A stretch of 43,628 nucleotides of DNA from Ruminococcus sp. GTDB lineage: Bacteria > Bacillota > Clostridia > Oscillospirales > Ruminococcaceae. A program made the translations under genes and the position numbers. The DNA is taken from positions 1-43,628 of the forward strand of contig JAISHV010000045.1 in NCBI GenBank assembly GCA_031262495.1, written 5' to 3'. Shown here piece by piece: positions 5,099 through 43,628 of this stretch; within the stretch, counting starts at the first letter, position 1, and every line of letters starts with the position of its first letter. The notes below the pieces were generated by a model that was given only the letters and a program-made list of their open reading frames with translations, ran no database searches and was not told where the DNA came from.

Positions 5099-5157
5099 AT
5101 TTATCTCTTAGCGGTTTTGCTGTGGTTGTTAGTTTTTGCTATTTTTTCTCGTTTTTG

Positions 5158-5389
5158 TGAATGCCGCGTTTGGATGTCGTATGATTGTCAATATGAATGT
5201 CGTGAATGTCACGTTTGCATGAACTTGTCAGGGGCAAGAGGGAGAGGGGGCGGCTATTCGAGGTGGCAGGCATGACGCCGCCCCCTCTCCCTCTCACCCC
5301 CGACACCCCCCTCTCCCTCTCCCCCTGCGCAGTTGCTCGACTACTTGTCAGGTCTTACTCATCCGGCAGGGGAAATATCTTCAAGCGGC
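5158..5389 (-). repeat. Family A element, copy 1
   Basis: Fills most of the 355-bp gap between thrC and the phosphoesterase gene. Read on the minus strand (the sense of both genes): a start GCCGCTTGAAGATA, about 80 nt of variable sequence ending in a G-rich tract, a 29-bp stem (5305-5277 with 5254-5226) with a 22-nt loop, the conserved ATGCAAACGTGACATTCAC, then an array of GACATTCA-like units ending near 5158. On the minus strand the stem has no mismatch, only three G.U pairs. No plausible gene is seen in the gap. Confidence 0.8.
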
Positions 5390-5453
5390 ATACAAGATAA
5401 AACCATAATAATTTCAAAATGCAAAGACTTAGTTTAACATAGTATTTACTTAA

Positions 5454-15937: not shown

Positions 15938-16180
15938 TGAATGTCGCGTTTGAATGTCATTATGAATGTCATTATGAATGTTTGTTTGAATGTCTGTGAA
16001 TGTCCGTTTGCATGACTTTGTCAGGGGACAGAGGGAGAGGGGGCGGCTATTTATCGTGGCAGGCGTGACGCCGCCCCCTCTCCCTCTATCCTCCGACACC
16101 TCCAACCCCCACACCCCCTGCGCCGCTTCTCACCTGTCTGCTTAGTCTTACGCCACCCGGGTAGGGTATTATCTTTAAGC
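15938..16180 (-). repeat. Family A element, copy 2
   Basis: Fills the 348-bp gap between the ROK gene and the 133-aa gene. Minus-strand order: TTGCTTAAAGATAA start, variable GC-rich part, a 29-nt stem (16098-16070 with 16047-16019) with loop of 22, then ATGCAAACGGACATTCAC and the GACATTCA array to 15938. On the minus strand the stem has two G.U pairs and one A.C mismatch. No gene seen. Confidence 0.8.
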
Positions 16181-16241: not shown

Positions 16242-17255
16242 TTATCTGTCCTCTGTCTTCTGACATCTGACCTCTGTTCTGACTTCTGACCTCTGACCTC
16301 TGATTTCTGTGTTCCCTAAGAACGCTGCTCCTATGATGCCGGCGTCGTTTCCGAGTTTGGCTACGTGGATTTCGGTGTTTTTTTCGAGCATTTTGGTGTA
16401 GATTTGTTCTTTTACCTGTTCGCGCAGGGGTATAAGCAGCGGGTCGCCTTCGTTGCAGACACCGCCGCCGATACAGAGTATATCGGGTTGAAAAATATTT
16501 ATTACGTTGGCAATACCGATACTTAAATATTTAATATAGCAGTCTACTACATCTTTCCCGGGCTTGTCTCCTGCTCTCATTGCATTAAAAGCGTGGCGCG
16601 CCGAAACGTGCCCGTCTTCTTCGGCATAGCGGGCTATCAGGCTGTCGGGGAATTCACGAATTTTCTCTTTTGTCATTTCAATAAGTCCCGTAGCACTGGA
16701 AAAAACCTCAAAACAGCCGTCTCTGCCGCAAGTACAGCGTCTGCCATTCGGGTCAATAACCATATGACCTATTTCGGTTCCGGCTAAATTTCGCCCTGTG
16801 AAGATTTTACCGTCTATGATTACACCCGCGCCGACACCGGTCCCGAGTGTAATACAAACAGCGTCGGCAGCACCCATCGCCGCTCCCGCTAAATATTCGC
16901 CGTACGCCGCCGCATTGGCATCATTGGCTATATAGACATCCTTTTTTATAGTGCGGTTTATATATTCGCGCATTGGAACATCTTTAAATCCCAAATTGTT
17001 TGAATAGGGGATTGTGCCGCTTATATTGTCGGCGATACCCGGCGTACCTATACCTATCCACTCTACATCATCAATGGAAATCCCCGCTTTCTCGGCGGCT
17101 TCAATGCTTAAACGTGCCATATCGGCGGCTATTTCTTCTGCCGGGCGGTGTGAGTGAGTTCTTGCCGAGACTTTTGACAGAATTTCGTAATTTTCATTTA
17201 CTGCCCCGGCTTTGATGTTCGTGCCGCCGAGGTCTATGCCGATGTAATATTTCAT
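16242..17255 (-). CDS. ROK-family sugar kinase (glucokinase-like)
   Basis: 337 aa. ATP motif DLGGTNIKAG at 8-17; the ROK signature runs from GTGVGAGVIIDG through GTEIGHMVIDPNG, and the zinc motif is CTCGRDGCFE. The family phosphorylates glucose or other hexoses; glucokinase is the likeliest role given manA next to it. The enzyme core ends near IIGAAFLG, and the last 23 residues (NTEIRGQRSEVR...EDR) are encoded entirely by family C tandem repeats (16245-16306), so they are probably not functional. AAGGT precedes the ATG. Lies 42 bp after manA on the same strand. Confidence 0.93.
   Translation of the reverse strand: MKYYIGIDLGGTNIKAGAVNENYEILSKVSARTHSHRPAEEIAADMARLSIEAAEKAGISIDDVEWIGIGTPGIADNISGTIPYSNNLGFKDVPMREYINRTIKKDVYIANDANAAAYGEYLAGAAMGAADAVCITLGTGVGAGVIIDGKIFTGRNLAGTEIGHMVIDPNGRRCTCGRDGCFEVFSSATGLIEMTKEKIREFPDSLIARYAEEDGHVSARHAFNAMRAGDKPGKDVVDCYIKYLSIGIANVINIFQPDILCIGGGVCNEGDPLLIPLREQVKEQIYTKMLEKNTEIHVAKLGNDAGIIGAAFLGNTEIRGQRSEVRTEVRCQKTEDR
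16245..16306 (-). repeat. Family C tandem repeat encoding the ROK kinase tail
   Basis: Minus-strand units such as CAGAGGTCAGAAGTCAGA repeat every 7-8 nt and read in frame as TEIRGQRSEVRTEVR. The run ends in GACAGATAATGAACGCC, where TAA is the stop codon; almost the same ending occurs after rqcH and, degenerate, after the penicillin-binding protein. Confidence 0.85.
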
Positions 17256-25032: not shown

Positions 25033-25287
25033 TGAATATACTAAACGGATGGGAATGACTTAACCGAACAGCTTGGCAACCCCGCCGGGGGATGGGGGAG
25101 GGGGGTGTCGGGGGTGAGGGGGAAGGGGGCGGCGGGGTAATACCGCCGCTATAGCCGCCCCCTTCCCCCTTACCCCTGACCAAGTCATGCAAACGTGACA
25201 GTCACGACATTCATATTGACATTCATCCGACATTCAAACGCGACATTCACAAGACATCCATCACGACATTCAAACGCGACATTCACA
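25022..25287 (+). repeat. Family A element, copy 3
   Basis: Fills the 400-bp gap between the penicillin-binding protein gene and carB. Plus-strand order: AGCCGCTTGAAGTGAATATA, a variable part with a G-rich tract, a 27-bp stem (25107-25133 with 25154-25180; two G.U pairs, no mismatch) and 20-nt loop, ATGCAAACGTGACAGTCAC, then an array of GACATTCA units ending 27 bp before the carB -35 box. The stem sequence differs from copies 1, 2 and 4 on both arms, so pairing is kept by paired changes. No gene seen in the gap apart from a 22-codon frame. Confidence 0.8.
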
Positions 25288-25313: not shown

Positions 25314-25342
25314 TTGACTTTTTTAAGAACTTATGATATAAT
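25314..25342 (+). promoter_or_regulatory. Promoter of carB
   Basis: TTGACT (25314-25319), 17 bases, TATAAT (25337-25342), 45 bp before the ATG; the family A array ends 27 bp upstream of it. GAGGAAC precedes the ATG as ribosome binding site. Confidence 0.85.
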
Positions 25343-41392: not shown

Positions 41393-41435
41393 TGAACGCC
41401 TTGATTATCATTAAACCGCACAGTTTTTAGAATGT

Positions 41436-41464
41436 GCGGGCGACCGAGGGCGGTCGCCCCTACA
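41436..41464. repeat. Family D palindrome
   Basis: GGGCGACCG (41438-41446) pairs with CGGTCGCCC (41451-41459), loop AGGG, then CTACA. It lies 45 bp after rqcH. Confidence 0.8.
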
Positions 41465-41519
41465 GAAGAGGTATTCGCTGCCGCGTAGGTAGTCAACGAA
41501 AATATTAAAATCGCTACCA

Positions 41520-41777
41520 GACCGCCACCATGTCGCCACAGGGGGGGTGGGGGAGGGAGGTGTCGGAGGATAGGGGGAGAGGGGGCGGCGGGGTAATACC
41601 GCCTCAGATAGCCGCCCCCTCTCCCCCTGTCCTCTGACAAATTCATGCAAACGTGACATTCACGACATTCATATTGACATTCATATGACATTCATTCTGA
41701 CATTCAAACGGACATTCACAGACATTCATATAACATTCATACGACATTCATTCTGACATTCAAACGCGACATTCACA
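41520..41777 (+). repeat. Family A element, copy 4
   Basis: Plus-strand order: G-rich tract, 29-bp stem (41561-41589 with 41611-41639; two G.U pairs, no mismatch), 21-nt loop, ATGCAAACGTGACATTCAC, then the longest array: about ten GACATTCA-like units at intervals of 9-13 bp ending near 41777, 28 bp before the pyrC -35 box. No gene is seen in the 680-bp gap 41393-42072 beyond repeats and the pyrC leader. Confidence 0.85.
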
Positions 41778-41804: not shown

Positions 41805-41890
41805 TTGACATTCCCCTCCGTATATGCTATAATAAACGAGGTTGCAAAAATCAAACGCCTTTAGGAGTAATCCCGATGGGCGTTTTGTTA
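41805..41890 (+). promoter_or_regulatory. Promoter and attenuator-like hairpin ahead of pyrC
   Basis: TTGACA (41805-41810), 17 bases, TATAAT (41828-41833) is a perfect consensus. Transcription from about 41840 would soon meet AAACGCC (41853-41859) pairing with GGCGTTT (41879-41885) and a T4 run, a short intrinsic-terminator shape. The loop contains AATCCCGATGGGCG, which partly resembles the PyrR-binding consensus (11 of 14 by eye). It may be an attenuator for pyrC or a small RNA; pyrC begins 180 bp later. Confidence 0.6.
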
Positions 41891-43176: not shown

Positions 43177-43316
43177 TGTAGGGGCGGGCGCCCCGCCCGC
43201 CCGCATATTCTAAAACACTTTATTTTAGAACAACACATGATTTTTTTAATTGGCAGTTTGTGCGTTTAAGGCATAGCATTTTTATAGTACGGGCGGGCGG
43301 GGGCGCCCGCCCCTAC
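43177..43316. repeat. Two family D palindromes after pyrC
   Basis: TGTAGGGGCGGGCG with CGCCCGCC (43177-43204) and GGGCGGGCGG with CGCCCGCCCCTAC (43290-43316). Between them TTCTAAAA/TTTTAGAA forms an 8-bp hairpin that may help end the pyrC transcript. No gene is seen from 43144 to the end. Confidence 0.7.
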
Positions 43317-43344
43317 TACGCTGTAAAATCTAAAAATTTACTTT

Positions 43345-43522
<178 letters not shown>

Positions 43523-43628
43523 GAGAGGCGAGAAGGAGGTGGCAAACTAGAACAAAGGAGGAAGTGTACGCAACACAGTGTCTGAAAGTGGCATGATCGT
43601 AGGTAACGAGTGAGAATATGTTCCATAG
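43523..43628. other. Unexplained tail, possibly chimeric
   Basis: 106 bases after the C-run with composition unlike the neighbouring repeats and no frame, repeat or RNA feature recognised. Probably misjoined or low-quality sequence. Confidence 0.5.

Follow-up and report, generated by a model that had tools for sequence, protein, structure and literature searches.

Intrastrand DNA triplex repeats have been known in bacteria since about 2000 (PMC4666352), where the work of Hoyne, Maher et al. 2000 is cited, and the elements named TMECO, PIT and Box C belong to this class (Holder et al. 2015, PMC4666352). The antiparallel purine-motif triplets are A(T).AT and G.GC, and purine-motif triplexes have been reported not to form in RNA (PMC4666352). 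For TMECO, NMR gave the imino signals of a triplex rather than those of tetrads, and DMS footprinting in E. coli showed no stable triplex in vivo (PMC4666352).

The window analysed here, a stretch of 43,628 nucleotides from Ruminococcus sp., spans the whole of C91, one of the 104 contigs that make up a 2.08 Mb assembly. It contains four readable copies of a G-rich hairpin element (Table 1), whose stem-end pattern gave four matches against 0.00 expected from 100 shuffles. Read on the gene-sense strand, a copy consists in order of R1, TGTC or TGCA, R2, a loop, Y, GACA or TGCA, and an array of GACATTCA-type units, where R1 is a purine tract of 19-21 nt, R2 a purine arm with CGGC at its end, the hairpin loop 20-22 nt long and Y a pyrimidine arm. 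The sequence-only reading had counted five copies in the window; four lie where it placed them, and the fifth (43345-43522) is a poly-G/poly-C run with no readable stem.

Table 1. Positions of the repeat copies, their parts and neighbouring features in the window.
Feature	Position	Strand	Remark or basis
Copy 1, core	5226-5325	-	readable
Copy 1, R1, third-strand purine tract GGGGGAGAGGGAGAGGGGGG	5306..5325	-	mirrors R2 with one skip at T, 20 predicted triplets
Copy 1, TGTC, 5′ neighbour of R2	5302-5305	-	
Copy 1, R2, stem purine arm GGGGGTGAGAGGGAGAGGGGGCGGC	5277..5301	-	pairs with Y
Copy 1, Y, pyrimidine arm with closing GACA	5226..5254	-	folding
Copy 1, 3′ array of GACATTCA-type units	5158..5225	-	visible in sequence
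355-bp gap with copy 1, threonine synthase and metallophosphoesterase genes on either side	5099..5453	-	read as insertion
Copy 2, core	16019-16118	-	readable
Copy 2, R1 GGGGGTGTGGGGGTTGGAGG	16099..16118	-	mirror score 17 vs direct 11
Copy 2, R2 GGAGGATAGAGGGAGAGGGGGCGGC	16070..16094	-	stem pairing
Copy 2, Y arm	16019..16047	-	folding
Copy 2, GACATTCA array	15938..16018	-	
Copy 3, core	25087-25180	+	readable
Copy 3, R1 GGGGGATGGGGGAGGGGGG	25087..25105	+	mirror 18 vs direct 14
Copy 3, R2	25110..25133	+	stem pairing
Copy 3, Y arm	25154..25180	+	folding
Copy 3, GACATTCA array	25181..25287	+	
Sigma70-like promoter before carB, downstream of copy 3	25314..25342	+	sequence
Copy 4, core	41541-41639	+	readable
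Copy 4, R1 GGGGGGGTGGGGGAGGGAGG	41541..41560	+	score 15, the weakest third strand of the four
Copy 4, R2	41565..41589	+	stem pairing
Copy 4, Y arm	41611..41639	+	folding
Copy 4, GACATTCA array	41640..41777	+	
Sigma70-like promoter downstream of copy 4	41805..41833	+	sequence
Copy 5	43345..43628	-	array 43345-43430, then poly-G/poly-C noise to the contig end; core unreadable

Across the whole genome, the stem-end pattern matched exactly 142 times and its reversed control not at all, and patterns for the two loop types gave about 154 copies, variants included; the stretches around the copies were retrieved, and 142 non-redundant copies were extracted for comparison. Since contig ends commonly lie near copies (about 57 of 208 within 150 bp of one, by our own count from the match lists), the real copy number is probably higher. 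Where contigs break within a copy, poly-G/poly-C noise is present (43420-43530 in the window, the start of L091 and the end of L107), which is possibly a failure of sequencing at the structure, and some copies may be assembly chimeras. The full anatomy of R1-TGTC-R2-loop-Y was found in about 100 copies, and a GACATTCA-type array of at least three units follows on the 3′ side of 80 of the 91 copies with full flanks, while several alternative modules, one per copy, are found in mosaic fashion on the 5′ side. Some variant copies have an extra G in both R1 and R2 together with an extra C in Y, and several stem types appear recombined (L139, L141, L095).

This family resembles TMECO and PIT in being interspersed, intergenic and G/C-rich with a predicted purine-motif triplex on one strand, in a patchy distribution with copy numbers that differ strongly between close relatives, and in that no mobility gene was found beside them. 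Its purine and pyrimidine blocks are consecutive on one strand, as in class I intrastrand triplexes (reverse-Hoogsteen), and its letters correspond to the antiparallel purine-motif triplets G.GC and A(T).AT. Nevertheless, the order here is R1-R2-Y (class I), whereas TMECO has Y-R-R (class II); the third strand measures about 20 nt against 9 in TMECO, and the hairpin loop 20-22 nt against 3-6; many stem types with three-strand covariation are found here, whereas TMECO copies are near-identical; the gene-sense bias has reportedly no counterpart in TMECO, which is without orientation bias; and the attached GACATTCA array is likewise unlike TMECO. The TMECO/Box C sequence family itself was rejected as a candidate, its consensus CCCTCNCCCN3-6GGGNGAGGGN3GGGNGAGGG having 0 matches in the genome. 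With a third strand of 19-21 nt and a loop of 20-22 nt the family lies outside the ITxF search definition (stems of 6-15 nt, loops of 1-6 nt), but that size range is a limit of the database search and not a structural requirement. The family thus appears, as far as its sequence tells, to be a longer and differently ordered variant of the intrastrand triplex repeats (PIT/TMECO) with three-strand covariation, a feature for which no report in such repeats was found in the open-access literature, whose coverage is incomplete.

Other repeat systems share some of these features. REP/BIME elements, which are mobilised by RAYT (Y1) transposases, are hairpin repeats as well, intergenic and present in many copies, with partners in a mosaic and pairs arranged head to head, but the present family has a longer stem and a third strand, and no Y1 transposase (PF01797) was found in the genome, the assembly of which is 93% complete, so that mobilisation of the RAYT/REP kind was rejected. 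H-DNA mirror repeats have in common with it a purine mirror repeat with a short spacer, from which the third, complementary arm on the same strand, covarying with the others, sets the family apart. MITEs are likewise short, non-autonomous intergenic insertions in many copies; in the present family no constant terminal inverted repeats and no target-site duplication came to light, and the end modules vary.

Folding as either DNA or RNA gave a single long stem of about 27-29 bp for copies 1-4, in agreement with what the sequence-only reading had described for the four intact copies. No shuffle of any of the four was equally stable (z from -4.4 to -7.6 for sense-strand DNA, RNA folding agreeing), and in 4 of 4 copies the gene-sense strand was the better folder than the opposite strand, both as DNA and as RNA. 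A count over 28 different combinations of arms, in which the scoring gave wobbles no advantage, found 631 Watson-Crick pairs between R2 and Y, 27 G.T pairs, 1 A.C and 12 others, and none of 20,000 permutations reached the observed R2:Y pairing. Two further earlier claims, that the arms vary while their pairing is kept and that the wobbles fit one strand only, were therefore borne out beyond the window, since the copies collected genome-wide have both paired changes and a one-strand wobble.

On the 5′ side of the stem, R1 is a mirror image of R2 that follows a simple rule: G faces G-C pairs, either A or T faces A-T pairs, and T interruptions are skipped. This is the triplet code of an antiparallel purine-motif triple helix. 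The mirror triplet score averaged 17.43 for 23 distinct R1/R2 pairs, compared with 15.00 ± 0.31 when R1 was permuted (0 of 20,000 as high), 11.8 when the letters of R1 were shuffled and 14.61 in the direct register. The mirror exceeded the direct register in 19 of the 23 pairs, with three ties, and the sole worse pair (L139) looks chimeric. Swapping R1 between copies impaired the fit in 218 of 230 cases and improved it in 2, whereas the same swaps in the direct register gave 118 worse and 61 better. Fourteen copies with an enlarged R1-R2 turn had been excluded from the mirror fit, and among these held-out copies the mirror equalled or exceeded the direct register in 13, the exception (L141) again having a chimeric look. 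The third-strand tally comprises 349 G.G, 45 A.A, 45 T.A and 23 skips at T, with 15 departures in all. Opposite A-T, T was therefore as frequent as A, and it stood opposite G once only, which argues for the purine motif on this strand rather than the pyrimidine motif on the other. Examples are type D, with R1 GGGGGTGAGAGGGT-TGGGGG against reversed R2 GGGGGAGAGAGGGATAGGGGG, and type E, with R1 GGGGGTGTGGGGGT-TGGAGG against reversed R2 GGGGGAGAGGGGGATAGGAGG; the common type B (about 30 copies) has an imperfect mirror fit, with A opposite a bulged T. Both the G.T wobbles and the triplex code are found on one and the same strand.

It is reasonable to suggest that the family is a lineage-specific interspersed DNA repeat whose gene-sense strand, in the form of single-stranded DNA, probably adopts a triplex with about 20 triplets. 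The gene-sense strand could become single-stranded in a replication gap, as the displaced non-template strand during transcription, or as a transfer intermediate; Y would then pair with R2 as a hairpin, and R1 would fold back antiparallel into the major groove of R2:Y, making about 20 G.GC, A.AT and T.AT triplets and skipping each T of R2. From the published chemistry we infer that the fold forms as DNA rather than RNA, single-stranded DNA being the better substrate because purine-motif triplexes are reportedly absent in RNA. Since TGTC pairs with GACA, little linker is left for R1 to enter the groove unless the helix opens; the ACG linker and the extra small hairpin present in some copies may relieve this strain, and otherwise the TGTC:GACA helix must open. 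Hairpins propagate or protect REP elements, and in a comparable manner the fold itself might be what propagates or protects the present repeat. The advantage of the fold could lie in propagation, as with REP hairpins, in protection or polymerase arrest, or in a host function. The likeliest account would be a non-autonomous repeat whose gene-sense strand adopts the triplex whenever it is single-stranded, with the fold under selection. Our results also raise the more speculative possibility, which we regard as doubtful, of a mobile DNA repeat that propagates via a single-stranded triple helix, with a legible third-strand code that includes the skips at T, recognised by a putative enzyme, the three-way covariation being the natural record of selection on a DNA triplex in cells.

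Near-identical E. coli TMECO copies cannot reveal covariation (PMC4666352), whereas more than 12 stem types here change in all three strands; as these stem types share descent, the independent co-changes are far fewer than the copies. The co-changes follow the purine-motif triplet rules together with an apparent rule for interruptions, and three-strand co-change of this kind looks like independent evolutionary evidence for a triplex fold selected in cells. For laboratory tests the stem types offer a ready natural set of third strands, some matched and others mismatched, and the family would be an instance of intrastrand triplex repeats spreading in a lineage-specific way.

With flanking genes taken as simple open reading frames without curated annotation, the element lies in gene sense in 49 tandem gaps and in antisense in 19 (p 0.0004), with 18 further gaps convergent and 5 divergent. 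The placement between co-directional genes that had been noticed in the window thus holds for all four of its readable copies but amounts genome-wide to a bias. The gene on the 5′ side was in sense for 86 copies and antisense for 35 (p 4e-6). No sign of a replication-strand bias was seen in the GC skew of the flanks, which is about zero in the convergent group, and the orientation of the element seems to follow genes, not replication. Such a gene-sense bias could result if copies that place the triplex on the template strand are selected against.

The sequence-only reading had taken the element for a structured RNA or something mobile-like, and its strand-specific structure, compensatory arms, mobile-like character and gene-sense bias all stand, whereas the reading as RNA has lost ground. 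A transcribed RNA element, with the R2:Y hairpin as a 3′-end stabiliser or intergenic regulator and R1 incidental, now seems unlikely to us. The G.U-type wobble on the gene-sense strand, the sense of the 5′-side neighbour and the great stability of the hairpin as RNA would all suit it, and copy 1 lies between genes that are adjacent in relatives, so that read-through is likely and the hairpin may be transcribed in this way. However, such an element leaves the R1 mirror with its purine-motif triplet code unexplained, and that type of triplex is reported not to form in RNA (PMC4666352). Among 65 gaps, moreover, 19 had a sigma70-like promoter separating the element from its downstream gene (3.7 ± 1.8 in shuffled sequence), so that the element is not a leader there; on the other side, towards the upstream gene, a promoter was found in 2 of 85 gaps (1.9 expected). 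Recognisable promoters downstream of the element argue against a typical leader regulator. Rfam models searched against the window matched two tRNAs only, with no match to the element.

An H-DNA structure in duplex DNA, with supercoiling driving the R1/R2 mirror repeat into an intramolecular triplex and R2/Y, as an inverted repeat, forming a cruciform of its own, is improbable. R1-TGTC-R2 is indeed a purine mirror repeat, the classical requirement for H-DNA, which does not need a downstream Y arm. That arm would be left unaccounted for, yet it covaries with R2 beyond every permutation and the wobbles are one-stranded, so that both constraints meet in a fold of one strand. Still less credit can be given to a G-quadruplex element made from the G runs of R1 and R2; each tract has several runs of 3-5 G, and quadruplexes can compete, but a quadruplex requires neither the Y arm nor the letter-by-letter A/T mirror of R1 to the A positions of R2. 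Low-complexity purine tracts with gene conversion might yield a mirror without selection on the fold, and the tracts are G-rich and the stem types L139, L141 and L095 look recombined. Nevertheless, we hold this to be highly improbable, because templated copying yields direct or reverse-complement copies and not mirror ones, shuffled R1 scores far below the real one (11.8 vs 17.4), and the direct fit beats the mirror precisely in the evident chimeras L139 and L141. Competition of the G-rich tract upstream for the C-rich arm, as suggested earlier, found no support, and a two-state switch with R1 as the Watson-Crick competitor of R2 for Y can be practically dismissed, since purine-rich R1 pairs partly with Y but without covariation (R1:Y 13.75 against 13.69 ± 0.17 permuted, 7,681 of 20,000 permutations as high), which speaks against it as a conserved constraint.

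For the lineage-specific triplex repeat favoured above, a DNA-similarity search found no element in 60 relatives, four of them of the same genus, and the stem-end pattern gave 0-2 matches per genome in 296 other genomes of the family against 142 here; the same-genus genomes are 66-81% complete, so that absence from them weighs less than absence from better genomes. In a wider genome collection, which may omit the home genome, the matches listed for the stem-end pattern were scattered, nearly all single, mostly in GC-rich genomes and of no informative value, and no match was found among viral contigs. The threonine synthase and metallophosphoesterase genes abut or lie at most about 60 bp apart in three same-genus genomes (G001, G003, G004) and are separated by 355 bp here; this adjoining of the genes around copy 1 indicates that the family inserted in this lineage, at this gene pair at least. 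An empty-site comparison upstream of carB showed that synteny in relatives differs from that found here. A search for terminal repeats and target duplications gave no consistent or constant ends among the copies, and inverted TGTAGTACC..TTTACA-like ends are present in a minority of them.

Several smaller structures accompany the copies. Head-to-head pairs about 260-280 bp apart occur at G000 C31:7105/7374, C75:5060/5340, C93:34573/34833, C93:39991/40262 and C97:6108/6387, their members mostly differing in stem type. At least 14 copies, drawn from several stem types (L028, L047, L092, L112, L152, L155 and others), have an extra hairpin (GCACTAACAAGTTAGTGC) in the R1-R2 turn, and L053 and L114 have an insert resembling it in the Y arm. 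The GACATTCA arrays of L003, L023, L047, L071 and others contain short hairpins as units, either GCAGCAACGCTGC or GTAGCAACGCTAC and then GGGACATCTC, and the changes in the arms of these hairpins are compensatory. Arrays of the CTGTCTTCTG / CTGTATTCTGTA type adjoin or come after GACATTCA arrays at many loci, including 16250-16320 in the window. A second family of hairpins, in which the arms are exchanged (GGGCGACCG..CGGTCGCCC, GGGCGGGCG..CGCCCGCCC, GGGCGGATGT..ACATCCGCCC), is found at about 41430-41465 and 43290-43320 in the window and at many other loci, frequently beside CTACTAC ends.
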